IMG/VR virus record: IMGVR_UViG_3300032294_002797
Coordinates: 124,001 to 188,000 of that record
DNA from: a virus
Length of the DNA stretch: 64,000 nucleotides
Direction: 5' to 3' (one strand)
The stretch's first letter is position 1. Every line of letters begins with the position of its first letter. Shown piece by piece: positions 1-58,896 of the stretch. The notes under the pieces are model-generated. The model was not told where the DNA came from and ran no database searches. It saw only the letters and a list, made by a program, of their open reading frames with translations. Made by a program: the position numbers and the translations under genes.

Positions 1-344
1 TGATAATAGTCGATAGACTCTTGCCCATTTTTTTTATCTATATAGTGGTTAGATACTGTTTTTCCATCTCTAATTGCCTCCAAGCACCCAGGCCTTAATA
101 TGCTGATCAAAGCAGATAGATGTTCTATATTTCGAGGCTTTAGTTTTTTAGCCATAGACCGTCCAAGCCTAGACTCCAATTGAAAGCATCCTTTAGTATT
201 GCCGTCAGATATTAGGTCCCAGGTTTTAGAACAGTCTAGATTTAAACTATGTCTAATTGGATCAAACTCCACCAATAACTGGTTGTTTTCTGATGGAATA
301 ATATCGAATGAGCATCCACAATCGTAATTAAAAGTTTTAGGCAT
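1..344 (-). CDS. dnaE: DNA polymerase III alpha subunit, C-terminal fragment (split DnaE), partial
   Basis: Reading from ATG at 344 to the window edge gives about 114 residues that continue outside. After a short N-terminal leader containing CGC comes the DnaE block TWDLISDGNTKGCFQLES, then KKLKPRNIEHLSAL and ISILRPGCLEA. In family-C polymerases these lie just after the third catalytic aspartate, at the palm/fingers region. The gene is therefore the second half of the replicative polymerase whose first half is at 1228-3102. The exonuclease gene upstream overlaps its start by 8 bases. No intein motif is seen at the junction, so the two halves probably assemble non-covalently (inference). The 3' part is not visible. 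Confidence 0.88.
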   Translation of the reverse strand, partial: MPKTFNYDCGCSFDIIPSENNQLLVEFDPIRHSLNLDCSKTWDLISDGNTKGCFQLESRLGRSMAKKLKPRNIEHLSALISILRPGCLEAIRDGKTVSNHYIDKKNGQESIDYY

Positions 345-1044
345 GTTTATTTGACGACGATACAAATGAATCTTTGAACTTAACCTTTTGAGATACATTA
401 CGATGAAGTTTTAGAAATCTCATCAGTATCTCTGCACAGTCCTTAACATCTTTAAGAGCATCATGAGCACCTTTTTTATCTATGCCTAGATAATCTCTAA
501 GATTATCCATAGAATAGCTTTTAAGATCGTTATTTTGTTCAAACCAATAAAATACTAAGTTCATAATATCTATAACATCTCTTTGAAAGAAAATATTGCT
601 ATTACCTTCTTTATTGGTATCCCCATATTTCTGACTTAATCTATCAATAATTTTTAGATCAAAGCGATTAATATTGTATCCAGCTGGTAGCGGCGCAGAA
701 AATTGATTTTTCTTAGAACTTCTACTATGGTATTTTGTTAAATATTCTGTAAACATTTTCCAGGATTGTTCTTGAGGAGGATACTTGAGCCATTCGTCCA
801 GTACTTCTTTTTTGGAAGAACCCTTAACTTTGGCATGAAAATCCAAGATATCAGTTTCATATACATACTCAGGATTTTTTTCCAAAACTTCGGGCTTGAA
901 GTAAATATTAAATTCTGAATCTGGAATAATCTCTAGAGATATTGGATCAATTATCACCGAGGCTATCTGAACAGGACTACATTGAGTAGGATCGGAGCCG
1001 TCCGTCTCAAAATCAAAGACACATATTTTATTGTAGTTTATCAT
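337..1044 (-). CDS. dnaQ: DnaQ-type 3'-5' proofreading exonuclease (DEDDh)
   Basis: This 235-residue protein has the DEDDh exonuclease signature: Exo I CVFDFETDG (D11, E13), Exo II INRFDL (D129) and Exo III GAHDALKD (H194, D199). The family removes mispaired 3' ends using two metal ions. Its place between the two DnaE halves, with ATGA overlap upstream and 8-base overlap downstream, suggests it is the proofreading (epsilon-like) subunit of the phage polymerase; that role is inferred. A long insert (about residues 50-115) separates Exo I from Exo II, so this is not a minimal epsilon. Confidence 0.87.
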   Translation of the reverse strand: MINYNKICVFDFETDGSDPTQCSPVQIASVIIDPISLEIIPDSEFNIYFKPEVLEKNPEYVYETDILDFHAKVKGSSKKEVLDEWLKYPPQEQSWKMFTEYLTKYHSRSSKKNQFSAPLPAGYNINRFDLKIIDRLSQKYGDTNKEGNSNIFFQRDVIDIMNLVFYWFEQNNDLKSYSMDNLRDYLGIDKKGAHDALKDVKDCAEILMRFLKLHRNVSQKVKFKDSFVSSSNKHA

Positions 1045-1226
1045 GAGTTATTAGATTGAATTACTTCCACCTCTGTAATGGGCACAACTTGTATCTTTTC
1101 TCCCGTAGCAACAGACTGAGCATTAAATACTTTGCAGCAACTCAATCTTTCGTCTGGTATTCTCAGGTATTCTTGTTGATTGTATAAAAATTTATCACCA
1201 TTTTTTAAATCTGCCATTCTTGTCAT
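1041..1226 (-). CDS. Small hypothetical protein in polymerase operon
   Basis: Sixty-one residues. ATG at 1226 follows a GGGAG ribosome-binding site and the stop shares ATGA with the exonuclease start, so the reading frame is credible. It is probably a small beta-rich domain: LKNGDKFLYNQQEYLRI is followed by short strands. The same pattern (LKPGNIFFYRENIF, then a Cys/Tyr strand and a V/E-rich end) appears in the 81-residue protein at 60840-61085, so the two look like diverged paralogues. Function unknown; the position between polymerase halves suggests a replication accessory (inference). Confidence 0.65.
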   Translation of the reverse strand: MTRMADLKNGDKFLYNQQEYLRIPDERLSCCKVFNAQSVATGEKIQVVPITEVEVIQSNNS

Positions 1227-1227
1227 T

Positions 1228-3102
1228 TTATTCTCCCTTTTTTAAAATATCTTGTATAGTCATAATTTTATCTAACATAGCAACTCCCAATATGTCAAAC
1301 TTTATTATACCCAAAGATTCTAAATCTTGCATCTCCATACCGGCTATCGTTTGCTCATTTTTTACATCGTACACCATAGGACATATATCTTTTAAAGCAT
1401 GGGAGCTGATGGCTATGCCGGCGGCATGCTTGGATTGATTAGATTTCGTGCCCTCTAATCTTATAGCCTGTTCGAACCTTTTGGCAAGTGGTCCTTGTAA
1501 TTGTTGATTCTCATCTAAATAGCACCAATCTTTTAATTTATCTCCATTATTTTCTAATGCCCAGCGTATAATAGACGCTTCTCCCGTTTCTTCTTTCATT
1601 TCTTGTAGATCGTCAGCTATTTTAGCTTCATCTGGTATGTGCTTGGTGATATTGTTCATTTCATCGAAAGAAATATTACCATAAACACGCAATACATCTT
1701 TCAAGGCTCCTCTTCCTTTGATTGTATTAAACGTAATCATCTGAGAAACTTTATCATGTCCATATTTCTTTTTAATATATTCGATAATATTTTCTCTTTG
1801 ATTGATAGGAACATCAACATCTATATCTGGCATAGAGATATGTTCTGCAGTATTTCTACCAGCATTATAAAATCTATCAAACATTAGATTATACTTAATT
1901 GGATCTATATTGGTAATACCTATTAAATAGGAGACCAAACAACCAGCAGCACTTCCTCTGCCCGGCCCGGGAAGCCAGTTATTGCTTCTTACATAGTTCA
2001 CTATATCCTGCACTATTAGAAAATAGCTAGATAGGTCAGCACCTTGTAGAACTTCTAGTTCGTATTTGATTCTATCTACATATGCGCCATGTTGTTCTTT
2101 ATCTACTAGTGGAACTATTTTTTCTTTCCATCCTTTTCTACACAACTCTCTGAGATATTCTGCATCATCATAACCCTGAGGACAAGAGAACGGAGGTAAA
2201 TTAGGCTTGCTCAAGATATTGTATTCTTCACATAAAGAATCTATATAATTCGTATTCTCTATTTCTTCTTCGGTATGAAGGGTTCGTATTTCATCTTGTG
2301 ATAGTATATGAAAATTATCAGATAGGAAAAAGGCTGATAAACCTATATCCTCGGAATTTGATAATTTTTTATTGATCTCTGGAAATGTTGTTTTTAAATT
2401 ATTGCATAATAGGATTCTTTGATCTACCGCATCTTCTTTTCTACAATAATGGGCATCTGGTGTGCAGACCACTTTGGTATTTGTAATCTTAGATAATTCC
2501 CTAATACACTCCGTCAAATGTACTTGAATAGTCAAATTATGCTTATCCATCAATTGACTTTCCAAGAAAACATTTTCCTTACCAAATACATCTTGCAACT
2601 TATGTATATTTTGAGATCCAATATTTTTCCAGTCGGATATGATTTTATCACTATCTATCAATTTATCAGACAAAACAGAGCCTAAGTGTCCGCATATAGC
2701 TATCAGATTGCCATTAACTAAATGCCCTAATCTATCAAGATCTAGCCTAGGTCTGTGGTAATATAGGTCTGGCTTGTTTGATTCTGACACTATCTGTATC
2801 AAGTTTTTCCATCCATCATAGTTTTTTGCTAATACTAAAAGATGGCTTAATTTTTTATTCGATTTGTCCTGTATGGCAGCATCTTGTGACGAAATGTATA
2901 ATTCACAGCCCAAAATCGGCTTGATGCCATTTCGTCTCATTTCTGTATAAAATTTAATAGCGCCAGCTATATTACCATGATCGGTAAGAGCACAGGATTT
3001 GGCACCTATCTCCAAACAGCGAGAAGCGATCTGAGACGGTTTGGATAGTCCATCCAATAGGCTGTACATTGAATGCACATGGAGAGGAATGTATTTCTTC
3101 AT
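1228..3102 (-). CDS. dnaE: DNA polymerase III alpha subunit, N-terminal fragment (split DnaE)
   Basis: A 624-residue protein with an N-terminal PHP domain (PLHVHS with H8 and H10, TDHGN at 40-44) and the first part of a family-C polymerase core. The core shows LPGPGRGSAAGCLVSY (377-392), the catalytic pair MPDIDVD (D426, D428) and the third aspartate in IIKFDILG (D603). It stops 21 residues after D603, where ordinary DnaE (about 1,160 residues) continues into the block found at 1-344. All three catalytic carboxylates are therefore on this fragment. It starts in a TAATG overlap with the nuclease gene upstream. A typical N-terminal OB or clamp-binding tail is not expected here and none is visible. 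Confidence 0.92.
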   Translation of the reverse strand: MKKYIPLHVHSMYSLLDGLSKPSQIASRCLEIGAKSCALTDHGNIAGAIKFYTEMRRNGIKPILGCELYISSQDAAIQDKSNKKLSHLLVLAKNYDGWKNLIQIVSESNKPDLYYHRPRLDLDRLGHLVNGNLIAICGHLGSVLSDKLIDSDKIISDWKNIGSQNIHKLQDVFGKENVFLESQLMDKHNLTIQVHLTECIRELSKITNTKVVCTPDAHYCRKEDAVDQRILLCNNLKTTFPEINKKLSNSEDIGLSAFFLSDNFHILSQDEIRTLHTEEEIENTNYIDSLCEEYNILSKPNLPPFSCPQGYDDAEYLRELCRKGWKEKIVPLVDKEQHGAYVDRIKYELEVLQGADLSSYFLIVQDIVNYVRSNNWLPGPGRGSAAGCLVSYLIGITNIDPIKYNLMFDRFYNAGRNTAEHISMPDIDVDVPINQRENIIEYIKKKYGHDKVSQMITFNTIKGRGALKDVLRVYGNISFDEMNNITKHIPDEAKIADDLQEMKEETGEASIIRWALENNGDKLKDWCYLDENQQLQGPLAKRFEQAIRLEGTKSNQSKHAAGIAISSHALKDICPMVYDVKNEQTIAGMEMQDLESLGIIKFDILGVAMLDKIMTIQDILKKGE

Positions 3103-4145
3103 TATTCGGCAGAACCGGGCGCTTTGTATTGACCGATATTATAGCCTTCGCGCTGGTATGTGTCAATGGCATATTCCATTCCGTGTAAGTCTATTTCATG
3201 TTTTATTTGTTCACACTGTGTCATATGTTTGTCAATCGGAGTAACTTGCTTCGATCTGTATTCTATGATCGGTAAATGCTCACTATTCTCGAATGTATTT
3301 TTACCAAAATGACATAATTTAGTGCATTTCCAACTTTTATTGAGTTGTGGATTTGTAGTATTTCTGATACTATCAAATTTATTTTTTAGCATCATTTCTA
3401 CTTGATGAAGATGAGAGTCGTCAAAACAAACAGAAAACATTCCGCCATCATTTATAAAATTAATAGATACAATCACATGCTTAATAGCAGGATACAACTG
3501 CTTAATGGCATAATAATATAACATTAATTGAGCGTCTCTATGTAATTTATCTAGAGTTTTTTCCTCTCCGGTTGCCCAATCTAATCTTTTCCCTGTTTTC
3601 CAGTCGATCACTTCTAGTGTATCGTCGTTAACTTTGGTAATAAGATCGATAGTTCCTTTGATAGCCAAATTACCTGTGAGTCGCCCTTCTTTGGTGAGAT
3701 AGTCATATTTTGCCCAATCTTTTTTTATTTCTATATCGAAATGTTGTTCGGGTTGAACTATATCTCGTTGTCTAGGATCGAACATTCCATTATTATGTTC
3801 TAAAGCTTTATATACCCACTTATAACAATCTTTATAGTCCGTGCTAGACCATGCATGATGAGTAAATAAACTAGTATAATATTGGTAAACCTGTTCTATA
3901 ATAGTGTCTAAATTATAGTTCTTGACATCTACTTGATTAACAATATCATCATAAAAATATGGTCTGCCTTGTTGTGTACACATCTTGATTTCTGCCAAAA
4001 TTTCAAAAACCTTATGGCATATTGTGCCCTTATCTGCTTTTTTATTGGATGGCGATTTTATACCTAGGTTATATTCTATAAAATATTGCATAGGACAAAA
4101 AGAATGAGTTCCATAACTGGAACTGCGTATATATGTAACAATCAT
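3102..4145 (-). CDS. PD-(D/E)XK nuclease, RecB/Cas4-like exonuclease
   Basis: A 347-residue protein with the order of motifs of the PDDEXK_1/RecB family: an N-terminal helix with SFCPMQYF, HKVFE, then GTIDLI (Asp ligand) and VIDWKTG (E/D-x-K core), followed by RDAQLMLYYYAIK (the QxxxY motif). Such enzymes process DNA ends during recombination or recycle host DNA. Cysteines near the N terminus (SFCPM) and C terminus (KCTKLC) could suggest an Fe-S cluster as in Cas4/AddB, but the spacing is not canonical, so I do not claim one. It overlaps dnaE by one base and the dNMP kinase by ATGA. Confidence 0.85.
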   Translation of the reverse strand: MIVTYIRSSSYGTHSFCPMQYFIEYNLGIKSPSNKKADKGTICHKVFEILAEIKMCTQQGRPYFYDDIVNQVDVKNYNLDTIIEQVYQYYTSLFTHHAWSSTDYKDCYKWVYKALEHNNGMFDPRQRDIVQPEQHFDIEIKKDWAKYDYLTKEGRLTGNLAIKGTIDLITKVNDDTLEVIDWKTGKRLDWATGEEKTLDKLHRDAQLMLYYYAIKQLYPAIKHVIVSINFINDGGMFSVCFDDSHLHQVEMMLKNKFDSIRNTTNPQLNKSWKCTKLCHFGKNTFENSEHLPIIEYRSKQVTPIDKHMTQCEQIKHEIDLHGMEYAIDTYQREGYNIGQYKAPGSAE

Positions 4146-4723
4146 ATTTTGTCCTTTAGTAATTGGGTCAAAAATTGAGCTATAATTGTATTTTGCTCTG
4201 GTATTTTAATATCGTGGTTCTCTATTACCAAATCAAATACAGAATGATCGTATCCAGGGGCGTCGAGCGCTATCTCACTCTCATGGTTTGAGCTATAAGG
4301 GTTTCTATTTAATTTGATAATGCAACCACCAGCCTTTTTTATAGCGGACACCTCGTTGGGAAATCGACAATCTGCGATAATGGCCAAATCCACGTTATCT
4401 CTATGAATTTTATTAATAGTAGCATTGGCCCATACATCAGTTTGTATATTTCGAAAAATATCGGTGCCAACAAACTGCATAACTTCTCGTGAGGTCATTT
4501 GTTGTTTTTGCCAGTAACAATCGACTAGCTCATTTTTTTGAGCATCAGAACCGTAGCATTGATCATATGTCAATCCTAAAATATCCATACAAATATTTTT
4601 TTTGAGTGGATCAGCGAAATTATAGATACAACATTTGAGATCGGGATATAAAGATACCACAAACTCAGCGGATGTTGTTTTACCAGATTGTTTTTTACCG
4701 GCGAAAGCTATAATATGTGTCAT
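4142..4723 (-). CDS. Deoxynucleoside monophosphate kinase (T4 gp1-like)
   Basis: A 193-residue P-loop kinase. Walker A is GKKQSGKTT at residues 9-17; NFADPLKKNI, QFVGTDIFR and IIADCRFPNEV match the phage dNMP kinase family that converts dNMPs to dNDPs for phage DNA synthesis. It sits with the primase, helicase and polymerase genes and upstream of the nuclease that would release nucleotides. The length is slightly below T4 gp1 (about 240). Another P-loop NMP kinase is possible but the motifs favour dNMP kinase. Confidence 0.82.
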   Translation of the reverse strand: MTHIIAFAGKKQSGKTTSAEFVVSLYPDLKCCIYNFADPLKKNICMDILGLTYDQCYGSDAQKNELVDCYWQKQQMTSREVMQFVGTDIFRNIQTDVWANATINKIHRDNVDLAIIADCRFPNEVSAIKKAGGCIIKLNRNPYSSNHESEIALDAPGYDHSVFDLVIENHDIKIPEQNTIIAQFLTQLLKDKI

Positions 4724-4728
4724 AAAAA

Positions 4729-5892
4729 TTAGTTAGGCAATAGAGGGAGAATATCTTGTTTAATCTCTTCTATTGTCATTTCTCCTATATCATTTTTTCG
4801 GATATTATCGGGTATAATAACTTTGTATGTATTTTGACATTTTGATCTAATTTGTTCTGCTGCTTTTTTTCCTGCTTCATCATTATCGGCCAAAACGAAC
4901 ACGCTCATCGCTCCTGATCCATCAAGAATCATTTTTTGACGATCACTAATAGATGAGCCGAAAATGGCAACGCTGTGATGAATACCGGCTTCTTCTAGTC
5001 TCCATACATTACCCGGACTCTCTACAATAATAACATATTGATCTTTGTGTATATGATCTTTTGCAAACCAATAGTTATATAAGTGATTTTGACTTTTAAA
5101 ATTTAAGCTGTGTTTCCATTTAGAATACATATATTTGTATTCTTCTTTGGGACACGCTAGTATAGGATCGTGAAACAGATGGCAGTCGTTACACTTCTCA
5201 TATATACTTCTGCCTGAGCATCCAATCATATACTCATGCTTATTATCATATATAGGAGCAACCACTCTATTATACATTTCTTTATTTGGCTTATTACATA
5301 AGCCTATATCATATTTATCTAAAATCTCTTTAGAAAATCCTCTATTAATAAAATACTCGGATGGAATAATCAAATTTTTTCTGACAGTATCTCTATTGGG
5401 ATGATTGGTTTTTTCAGACATGCGAGGATTCGACATCTGGTTAATAATGGATGTAAACTGTTGCTTATTTCTATGAGTAGTAGAGATTTTAATATCTGCT
5501 AAATTTTTATTGAGAAATTTAGAAACAAAATCTATAGTTTCTTTAAAAGAGCATGCTTCATCACCATCTTTTGACCAATCATATTTGGAATGAGATAAAA
5601 TGCCTCTCACAAAACCTAGTATAGAACCTTTAAAAATTTGTTCACAATTATGAGTTCTGCACTTCCAATTACCCCTATAAGAATCTCCTTGCACATAAAG
5701 ATTTATGGCACTTATATTATCTCCTCCATGTATAGGACAAGCCATAGAAATCATTTTAGAGGATGTTTTGTATTCTAAAGAAAAATGATTTAGTAGTTCT
5801 TCTATATTATCACAAAGATTATCGCACAAAATTTTAAGTTTTGCTTGATCATTCAAATGGGATTTCTGATTCGTTTTTTTCATTGTTTTCAT
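4729..5892 (-). CDS. dnaG: DnaG-type DNA primase
   Basis: A 387-residue primase. The N terminus has a CHC2-like zinc site (ACPIHGG and CRTHNCE, residues about 52-84). The middle region carries INRGFSKEILDKYDIG and NRVVAPIYD, typical of the DnaG core, with an extra Cys/His cluster (KCNDCHLFH, ACPKE). The TOPRIM metal sites are VESPGNVWRLEEAG and LADNDEAGKK. There is no obvious C-terminal DnaB-binding domain. It overlaps the helicase gene by 44 bases, and an alternative ATG at 5883 is possible. It would make RNA primers at the phage fork with the DnaB protein encoded just upstream. Confidence 0.9.
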   Translation of the reverse strand: MKTMKKTNQKSHLNDQAKLKILCDNLCDNIEELLNHFSLEYKTSSKMISMACPIHGGDNISAINLYVQGDSYRGNWKCRTHNCEQIFKGSILGFVRGILSHSKYDWSKDGDEACSFKETIDFVSKFLNKNLADIKISTTHRNKQQFTSIINQMSNPRMSEKTNHPNRDTVRKNLIIPSEYFINRGFSKEILDKYDIGLCNKPNKEMYNRVVAPIYDNKHEYMIGCSGRSIYEKCNDCHLFHDPILACPKEEYKYMYSKWKHSLNFKSQNHLYNYWFAKDHIHKDQYVIIVESPGNVWRLEEAGIHHSVAIFGSSISDRQKMILDGSGAMSVFVLADNDEAGKKAAEQIRSKCQNTYKVIIPDNIRKNDIGEMTIEEIKQDILPLLPN

Positions 5893-7315
5893 CGATAATA
5901 AATCCGTTAGAGCGGGATCCGCTGTTCTTCATTAGTTCAAGTTTGGTTTGACCTTCAGTGATCTTGGCGCACCAGCCCTTCATGTGACAATTAATATAAT
6001 CGTTGTCGTCGAGTCCGCCACCATGTCGGCTCACAAGCGGTACGAGCTTCCTATTTCCATTATCCGGACCATCTTCTGCGATTTCCTCTGGTGTTTTTCT
6101 TTTGAATATACTGAAATTGCTACACAACCATATAATTCTATCCGAGCCAGATGCGGTATCTGTGCTTTCTTTAGAGATACCATCTCTATTTAATTGAACA
6201 AAAGCAACAATAGGAATTTTATATTTACTGGCAAAATTATGCAATGATGTCATCATAAAACCAAGAACCTGGTATTCTTTTAAGTCTTGTGACATACCTT
6301 GGGTGTCCATCAATTTAAGATAATCATAAAAAATTACACAATCTTTAGCGGAGCCATCTGGATTAAGGCCAACCTCTTTGACTATCCATCGTCTCATTAT
6401 GGCTAGTTGATCCTCAAAGGGCTTGCCTGCAATAGATTTGTAATACAAAGGAGTTTGTTTAAGATCAGCCGTTGCGACCTTGATTTTTTCTAACTTGCTG
6501 GCAGACTCGGCAAATTTTCCGGTTTCTATATGGTTTATTTCCATCTCTGTCATCATAGCAATAACACGATTAACATGATCTTCCTTGGTCATTTCTGTAT
6601 CCATATTGAGCACAGGAATTTTTAGTTTATTGGCAATATAAAATCCTATATTATCAGACAACAAGGTTTTACCTGTTTTGGGTCGTGCAGCAATAACGTT
6701 TATGGTGCTTTTTCTAAGACCACCACCTATTGCATTATCATATGCAGGAAACCCTGTCGGGATACCCACTTGATCTATGGGATTATTTATGAGTTGATCT
6801 ATATATTCGTCTAAATTAGAGGCTATGCTTTCCGGTCCAGAATCAGAATCATTTAGCAACGACGAAAAATCAAAAATGGCATCCTCTGCTATGCCAAGTA
6901 TCGAACCTACACTCTCCGTTCCTGTAACATCTAAGATTTTATCCTGCGCTTTTTCTAGCTGGTTTCTTAGAAGCCTAGCGATTTCTAGCTTTCTAATTTT
7001 TGCTGCAAATTTTCTAATATTTTCACTATTGACAGGAAAATCTAGAATAGCTTTAAGGTGTTGTGTTTCTTCTTTTTTGTTAAAAAAGTGAGATAAACCC
7101 AGTTCCGAAGAAGCAGATAAAATAGTGGCAACGTCGATCTTAGGACGATGTTCTTGATCAAAAATATGTTTTAAGCATCTATAGATAATCTTATTGCTAT
7201 CTACAGTAAAAGTGCTTTCTTGTATCAGGTCGGCTATCTCTAAATAGCTTTCATCCCCATATACAGATATTCCCGCCAAAACAGCTCTCTCTGCTGCTGT
7301 ATCACAAAGTATCAT
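5849..7315 (-). CDS. dnaB: Replicative DNA helicase, DnaB family
   Basis: A 488-residue hexameric-helicase protein. The N-terminal domain (AAERAVLAGI, then VDSNKIIYRCL) is the DnaB N-terminal fold. The RecA-like C-terminal domain has GIPTGFPAYDNAIGGGLRK, Walker A ARPKTGKT and Walker B CVIFYDYLKLM. I choose ATG at 7315 because it lies 6 bases after AGGAG and in an ATGA overlap with the preceding gene; the longer frame would need a TTG at 7333. It unwinds DNA 5' to 3' ahead of the polymerase. Confidence 0.93.
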   Translation of the reverse strand: MILCDTAAERAVLAGISVYGDESYLEIADLIQESTFTVDSNKIIYRCLKHIFDQEHRPKIDVATILSASSELGLSHFFNKKEETQHLKAILDFPVNSENIRKFAAKIRKLEIARLLRNQLEKAQDKILDVTGTESVGSILGIAEDAIFDFSSLLNDSDSGPESIASNLDEYIDQLINNPIDQVGIPTGFPAYDNAIGGGLRKSTINVIAARPKTGKTLLSDNIGFYIANKLKIPVLNMDTEMTKEDHVNRVIAMMTEMEINHIETGKFAESASKLEKIKVATADLKQTPLYYKSIAGKPFEDQLAIMRRWIVKEVGLNPDGSAKDCVIFYDYLKLMDTQGMSQDLKEYQVLGFMMTSLHNFASKYKIPIVAFVQLNRDGISKESTDTASGSDRIIWLCSNFSIFKRKTPEEIAEDGPDNGNRKLVPLVSRHGGGLDDNDYINCHMKGWCAKITEGQTKLELMKNSGSRSNGFIIDENNEKNESEIPFE

Positions 7316-7695
7316 CCTGGACTCCTGGCACAAGCATTACACTTGTATCTCTCTTTCGCTTCCGATAAAAGATTTGGATTTATTTCCTCTGTTCTGCCAC
7401 AAACCCTGCACTTAACGGATACAGGTTCGAATTTTCTTGATCTAGGAGTTGGGCCATATACAGATAGTGCCTTATCGATTGCAGTATCTGCTTTATGTAG
7501 TTGTGCCTCCATCATACTGTCAAATTTATTGGCAAAATTTCCGGGCGTCCGTCTATTGGTTTTTGTTTTGATAGGACTAGCATCAATTGTTTCTAATTCA
7601 TGGTCACCAGAAGAAACTGGTTCCTTTTGTTGAGGCAACATAGACTGCAACATCGCAATCATTTGAGTAATTTGTTCTGGCGTTAAATTATCCAT
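7312..7695 (-). CDS. Small zinc-ribbon protein upstream of DnaB
   Basis: 127 residues. The N terminus is a short helix (LTPEQITQMIAMLQSML), the middle is low-complexity and basic, and the C terminus carries CRVCGRTEEI and KCNACARS, i.e. two CxxC pairs about 22 residues apart that fit a zinc ribbon. Its ATG overlaps the upstream gene by 8 bases after AAAGGGATGA. Its location beside the helicase suggests a DNA-binding or helicase-loading role, but that is only inference. Confidence 0.65.
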   Translation of the reverse strand: MDNLTPEQITQMIAMLQSMLPQQKEPVSSGDHELETIDASPIKTKTNRRTPGNFANKFDSMMEAQLHKADTAIDKALSVYGPTPRSRKFEPVSVKCRVCGRTEEINPNLLSEAKERYKCNACARSPG

Positions 7696-57771: not shown

Positions 57772-58896
57772 TTATATTCCTAATAATGGATTTTTATTAT
57801 TGTGTATTGTATTCGCTTTACAAAATTGGCTGCACTTTGACATGTATTTAATCTGAGAAGCCCCTATGTAACAACAGCAGGAGCGTATGCCTCCTAACAG
57901 TTCTTGTATTACTTTGTCTAAAGAACCTTTATATTTAACTATTATTTTTGTGCCTTCACTTGCTCTATACTCTTTCACTGTATCTTCGTATAGTTGTTGA
58001 GAGTGGTGTGTGCTCATACCATAATAAGAAAATTTAACTTTACGTTTTTCTGTTGGGTATCCAGGATCATTTGGTTGATAAAAATTGCCATGACGAACTA
58101 GATATTCATATTCCCATTCTCCGTCGCACGGATCACTTCCAGCAAAATAACCACCCAACATAACAAAATCTGCCCCAGCACATAGAGCCTTAGAAACATC
58201 TCCAGAAGTCTTATGTCCTCCATCAGAAACGATTAAGCCGAGTTTCTTGGGTCCATTTTGAAGACCATGAGCGACATAAGCATTTTCTAAACAGGCGGAT
58301 AACTGAGGCATTCCGCAGCCGGTTAGGAATCTTGTGGTACAGGCCGATCCCCCGCCTATTCCGACTTTTACTATGTCTACGCCGCCATAAATCAAAAGTT
58401 CTTGAGTAGATGATGTATTAGTGACATTTCCTGCAATAATAATTGATTCTGGAAAATGCTCTCTAACCTTATGACAATACTTAACAAAAACATCCATATG
58501 ACCATTGGGAACATCAATGCAGATATTTGGTTGTTTGCCTAGTTTTTGTTTAAGTTCTAGCAAATGAGCTAGGTCACTCTTTTTATATCCTATAGATACG
58601 AAAGTATAGTCAATATTGTTCGGATGTTTTATAAAATAATTTACTAATTCATCTACACTATGGTATTTATGTAAACATGCTATTATCTTATGATTAGCTA
58701 AGTCTTTAGCCATATCAAAACTACAAAAACTCATATTAGCACACATGATAGGTATACCAGTCCAAGTTCTTGGACTATGGTAAAAACTAAATGTTCTTTC
58801 TAAATGAATTTCTGATCGACTAGTTAGAGTGGATCGTTGAGGTACTATAAGAATATCATCAAAATCCAATTTGGTTTCATCAATAATTTTTTGCAT
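57772..58896 (-). CDS. guaC: GMP reductase/IMP dehydrogenase-family protein
   Basis: 374 residues of TIM-barrel. LDFDDILIVPQRSTLTSR at the start, KVGIGGGSACTTRFLTG with the catalytic Cys and LLGGIRSCCCYIGASQI are typical of GuaC (GMP to IMP with NADPH). No CBS domains, as in GuaC. Gly-Gly-Gly replaces the more usual GPGS. It would shift purine pools or remove GMP. Confidence 0.85.
   Translation of the reverse strand: MQKIIDETKLDFDDILIVPQRSTLTSRSEIHLERTFSFYHSPRTWTGIPIMCANMSFCSFDMAKDLANHKIIACLHKYHSVDELVNYFIKHPNNIDYTFVSIGYKKSDLAHLLELKQKLGKQPNICIDVPNGHMDVFVKYCHKVREHFPESIIIAGNVTNTSSTQELLIYGGVDIVKVGIGGGSACTTRFLTGCGMPQLSACLENAYVAHGLQNGPKKLGLIVSDGGHKTSGDVSKALCAGADFVMLGGYFAGSDPCDGEWEYEYLVRHGNFYQPNDPGYPTEKRKVKFSYYGMSTHHSQQLYEDTVKEYRASEGTKIIVKYKGSLDKVIQELLGGIRSCCCYIGASQIKYMSKCSQFCKANTIHNNKNPLLGI

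Follow-up and report, generated by a model that had tools for sequence, protein, structure and literature searches.

A phage family-C DNA polymerase encoded as two chains on either side of an exonuclease gene

In a viral DNA stretch of 64,000 nucleotides (hereafter the window, record positions 124001-188000 of the 223,302-bp virus record IMGVR_UViG_3300032294_002797) we encountered a DNA polymerase III alpha subunit (DnaE) that is divided between two genes, here termed N and C, which are separated by genes for a small protein (S) and a DnaQ-type exonuclease (E). The same two-gene arrangement is found throughout the relatives of this virus and is a real, old and conserved trait of the family. 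On the sequence evidence it is very probable that the replicative polymerase of these phages is a family-C (DnaE-type) enzyme composed of two non-covalently joined chains and accompanied by a DnaQ-type proofreader.

The split locus and its products

The genes at the start of the window are all encoded on the minus strand.

1..344, continuing to record position 122719 (minus strand): start portion of the DnaE C chain (total 541 aa), with CGC extension, fingers, HhH and OB fold
337..1044 (minus strand): E, DnaQ-type DEDDh exonuclease (235 aa; PF00929, phrog_192)
1041..1226 (minus strand): S, small beta-barrel (KOW/SH3-like) protein (61 aa)
1228..3102 (minus strand): N chain of DnaE, with PHP, palm and thumb (624 aa; PF02811 4.6e-36, PF07733 5.6e-73)
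3102..4145 (minus strand): PD-(D/E)XK (Cas4/RecB-like) nuclease, immediately upstream of N (PF12705 3e-19)
4142..4723 (minus strand): dNMP kinase-like protein in the gene run shared with N (ORF named by eye from its sequence, with no profile)
4729..5892 (minus strand): DnaG-like primase (Toprim; PF13662 3.3e-09)
5849..7333 (minus strand): DnaB-like replicative helicase (PF03796 4.7e-27)

The reading order is thus PD-(D/E)XK nuclease, N, S, E and C, and both the ORFs and the Pfam matches bear out the initial annotation, which had described a DnaE split into two genes around a 61-residue protein and a DEDDh exonuclease. Replication genes (DnaB, primase, SSB and RecA-like) adjoin the split polymerase. 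The dNMP kinase-like gene (a homolog of which also lies upstream of N in loci L085 and L112), the primase, the DnaB helicase and a RecA-like gene are located upstream of the nuclease, and genes for SSB and a glycosyltransferase follow C. Elsewhere the window encodes ribonucleotide reductase, tail and head-decoration-like proteins, as well as an IMP dehydrogenase/GMP reductase (57772-58896) adjoining a glycosyltransferase gene. The source record is classed as linear, so a portion of the genome may be absent from it.

The genes between the two halves had been described as all overlapping, which is correct for S and E (4 nt) and for E and C (8 nt) but not for N and S, which are 1 nt apart, base 1227 being free; the nuclease gene overlaps N by 1 nt. 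The stop codon of N and the start of C are 884 nt apart. S is preceded by a good ribosome-binding site (AAGGGAG), and no clear Shine-Dalgarno sequence is apparent in the stretch before C. Together with the gene overlap, this suggests that translation of C is coupled to that of E, and that the products are synthesised in matched amounts.

The N chain contains the full PF07733 model (positions 1-260, 260/260), which ends at residue 606, and carries the GS motif at residue 380, PDIDVD at residue 425 and a KFD motif that provides the third catalytic aspartate, D603. All three catalytic Asp residues are present, alignment to solved DnaE structures confirms that the catalytic motifs are retained, and the chain ends 21 residues past D603, as noted initially. 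The ORF of C begins at position 344 with MPKTFNYDCGCSFDI and reaches the conserved block TKGCFQLES, with which the polymerase had been said to resume, at residue 50. When followed past base 1 of the window, as the initial annotation had proposed, C extends over 541 residues and comprises a fingers domain (PF17657, from residue 33, 1.9e-45) followed by HHH_6 and an OB fold, of which HHH_6 falls slightly under the curated cut-off by sequence and OB lies at the cut-off, both being supported by fold. C keeps the fingers motifs GKKKPEEM and YSFNKSH, and a Foldseek search with its AlphaFold (AF2) model (pLDDT 90) aligns ~520 columns, from the fingers to the OB fold, with structures of Pol III alpha (E down to 1.9e-24). 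N and C match consecutive stretches of phrog_405 (positions 41-616 and 624-1076, respectively), so that, placed one after the other, the two account for most of a DnaE; in alignments with E. coli alpha, N reaches ~566 and C begins at ~589. The cut therefore falls in the short linker between the Pfam palm and fingers domains. The pair possesses the domains of family C, namely PHP, PF07733 with the GS motif and three Asp residues, PF17657 fingers, HhH and OB, but not the single polypeptide that is usual, although not strictly defining, for family-C DnaE. At its head, C carries a CGC motif that is present in 95 of 100 distinct C heads; C9, C11 and C38 are invariant in an alignment of 56 heads, mostly ones already having CGC.

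E matches PF00929 (E=2.9e-13) and phrog_192 ("DNA polymerase exonuclease subunit", 1.3e-23) and contains the motifs DFETD, RFD and HDALKD, as expected of an RNase_T/DEDDh exonuclease. S has no Pfam match and no PDB sequence match, but is confidently modelled as a small barrel (AF2 pLDDT 95) with a fold weakly resembling domain I of EF-P/eIF5A, and its Cys-Cys pair (C30 and C31) is invariant in an alignment of 84 members. Similar small proteins are found in many unrelated phages, presumably including some that are not DnaE phages; S is thus not specific to the split.

Conservation among relatives

Relatives were collected as best matches only, the best 80 of 144 viral relatives being kept in the search with N (66-100% identity) and the best 80 of 514 in the search with the C alignment, so that rarer fused relatives could be missed. 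Both halves are present in 150 loci. The order N-S-E-C occurs in 146 of these (105 distinct N genes) and N-E-C, as judged by profile, in three (one distinct N gene); in one representative of the latter, L165, an S-like ORF with a Cys-Cys pair directly follows N. The single locus with an intact DnaE (L114; one distinct N gene) lies outside the window family and was fetched through a different query. The split is therefore found at the identical junction in 149 of the 150 loci, representing 106 distinct N genes, with identities down to ~36%. The deepest member (L112, ~36% identical) keeps the order N, S, E, C despite inserted HNH-like genes, and in L089 (49% over the fingers), a contig from which N is absent, the C chain starts at the identical position. 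The window family forms one clade (SH-aLRT 100), and median dN/dS values of 0.034 for N, 0.041 for C, 0.030 for E and 0.072 for S reveal strong purifying selection on all four genes. Insertions are observed at several places: L047 and L048 contain ~1 kb with two additional ORFs between E and C, and in the N half of L087 an insertion of ~1.1 kb that includes an endonuclease-like ORF lies near residue 430, just before PDIDID.

No isolate shows near DNA similarity to the first 25 kb of the window. We read the family as a large group of uncultured phages whose genomes measure about 230 kb, which some sample names and marine or lake MAGs, surveyed non-systematically, indicate to be aquatic. The MAGs with which relatives were binned belong to Flavobacteriales, Chitinophagia and Alphaproteobacteria; such binning does not prove a host.

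A probable two-chain polymerase and alternative readings

Since the cut separates whole domains cleanly, copying most likely requires that two unspliced chains meet. N would supply the PHP, palm and thumb domains, including the GS motif and the three Asp residues that bind metal, and the fingers, helix-hairpin-helix module and OB fold would come from C; with an active site common to the two chains, neither half should polymerise alone. E. coli epsilon is bound by residues 1-270 of alpha (PMC3642679), and by analogy E, encoded between the halves, is most likely a proofreader that docks on the PHP domain of N. We regard as doubtful the more elaborate proposal that the core polymerase is an obligate complex of four subunits (N, C, E and S), with the CGC extension and third Cys of C, together with the Cys-Cys barrel S, serving to dock the chains and the proofreader to each other, perhaps around a metal ion.

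It is improbable that the halves have separate functions (N might be a PHP nuclease and C a DNA-binding protein) and that a host polymerase copies the phage. The C model does fold confidently alone and no phage clamp was found, but both halves keep the catalytic and fingers residues of a polymerase under strong selection, N, C and the exonuclease stay linked across more than 100 distinct genes, and their neighbours are replication genes. The whole 223,302-bp record contains a single PF07733 and a single PF17657 match, with no second palm or fingers match, and each of 12 relatives has a single PF07733. A full-length DnaE elsewhere in the genome, which would have undermined the split reading, was not found in the record, and no second palm was found in the 12 relatives. 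Family B and family A polymerases (PF00136 and PF00476) were not detected in five records of 223-244 kb, although control genomes gave matches. These profile searches of the record and its relatives found no second DnaE or other polymerase, with the limitation that the profiles could miss a polymerase of some other family that has diverged fast. The same five records gave no beta clamp in a search confined to the domain 3 profile PF02768; a host clamp is assumed to provide processivity.

Still less probable is that a cryptic split intein, or else RNA splicing, joins the halves covalently into a one-chain DnaE. Cyanobacterial DnaE offers a precedent, and relatives in the window family carry inteins at other sites, one type of which is apparently split. 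However, no Pfam intein domain is present in N or C, in agreement with the initial observation that the junction lacks intein residues, whereas the same search detected Intein_splicing in L031, L168, L188 and L089, away from the split junction, which served as positive controls. The intein N and C segments that define a split-intein DnaE are missing from the junction, whose ends are unlike intein borders and variable among relatives. Nine loci, including that of the window, contain no Rfam intron, and the DNA between the halves consists of two genes under purifying selection. An intein or intron at the junction was rejected on the basis of these Pfam and Rfam searches.

The family meets inteins often, yet none lies at the N/C junction. 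In the N half of L168, L188, L189 and L193, an intein interrupts the catalytic PGRG/S motif at ~residue 384; those of L168 and L188 have the borders PGRG/C...HN/S, and an endonuclease-like ORF separates the intein parts. Here a phage DnaE seems to carry a naturally split intein. L031 (L031:10738-13086) contains a ~245-aa intein with an HNH endonuclease in the fingers (RPG/CISGD...VVHN/CLEA), and L089 (L089:4293-6581), a contig binned with a Phycisphaerales MAG, has an intein in the FNKSH motif of the C chain.

The remaining explanations are highly unlikely. A sequencing or assembly error, which the initial annotation had recognised as a threat to its reading, or a decaying gene is incompatible with a junction common to contigs from many metagenomes and with dN/dS values far under 1; recurrence of the same split and order in 149 loci, with 106 distinct N genes, argues against both chance and misassembly. 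Stop-codon readthrough or frameshifting to give a fused N-C protein can be dismissed with similar assurance, since recoding would need to bypass two selected genes across the 884 nt that separate the N stop from the C start.

The two-chain reading implies that the sole recognisable replicative polymerase of widespread, uncultured large phages can persist long-term as a pair of chains divided between palm and fingers. It would offer a natural two-part DnaE for testing the assembly and movement of palm and fingers, and might serve as a starting point for split-polymerase tools. For annotation it carries a warning, as split polymerases may be missed, double-counted or dismissed as broken genes.

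Comparison with known split and intact polymerases

Division of a replicative polymerase between two genes has several parallels. Cyanobacterial dnaE likewise occupies two genes, but its product is rebuilt by a split intein through protein trans-splicing, in contrast to the window, which has no intein, and the cut lies later than the palm-fingers linker, in the fingers near the FNKSH motif. In some T4-like phages and some archaea, split family B polymerases assemble the replicative enzyme from two chains as proposed here, although the polymerase family is unrelated.

Intact phage DnaE proteins (phrog_405; gut phage MT836213, Streptomyces phage Sujidade and Bacillus phage Eoghan) have the same domains in the same order as the window, but are encoded by one gene and are at best ~34% identical. 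In almost every one of 60 phage records, sampled evenly, a fused palm-fingers query spans the junction unbroken. Other types of division are seen in the DnaE of Bacillus phage vB_BauM_KLEB27-3 (L110:3887-8284), which is cut inside the fingers and adjoins an HNH gene, and in phiST and Jayan, where the cut is near PDIDVD. The DnaE of Cellulophaga phage phiST (L109:2813-6413) is unannotated, with no CDS marked at that place, and consists of two ORFs meeting near PDIDTD whose ends resemble intein tails by eye, without a Pfam intein call.

The cultured Rossellomorea phage phiT1 (PV767480, L200:3986-7268) encodes gp20 and gp18, each deposited under the name "DNA polymerase III subunit alpha", and we found no paper discussing this split in our literature search. 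As in the window, the cut is at the palm-fingers linker, the genes are adjacent with one small ORF (gp19) between them, the PHP and OB parts are present and there is no intein. In contrast, phiT1 is only ~31% identical, has neither an exonuclease between the halves nor a CGC extension, and the S profile finds no match in its gp19 (49 aa). The placement of phiT1 relative to the window family has support of 68/64 in a careful tree; AU tests reject neither one clade for both (p 0.65, first tree) nor a grouping of phiT1 with the intact Moorella phage (p 0.42, second tree), so that the trees are compatible with a shared as well as with a separate split event. Being cultured and split at the same linker, phiT1 is a handy test system.

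The one related study that our literature search found is that of Iyer et al. (2021, PMC7824862), who described a minimal split form of DNA polymerase III alpha in jumbo phages of group 2.2; the search gave no paper on the present split. In group 2.2 a family-C catalytic module is also divided over two proteins, but these represent the minimal core only and are encoded by distant genes beside a family B polymerase (PMC7824862), whereas the window has full domains, adjacent genes and a sole detected polymerase, and so does not belong to that group. Atu_ph07, placed in group 2.2 by the same study (PMC7824862), matches only positions 18-98 of PF07733 and has a weak fingers match ~180 kb off. The split in the window adds a further form to the polymerases known to be split in nature, without constituting a kind apart.
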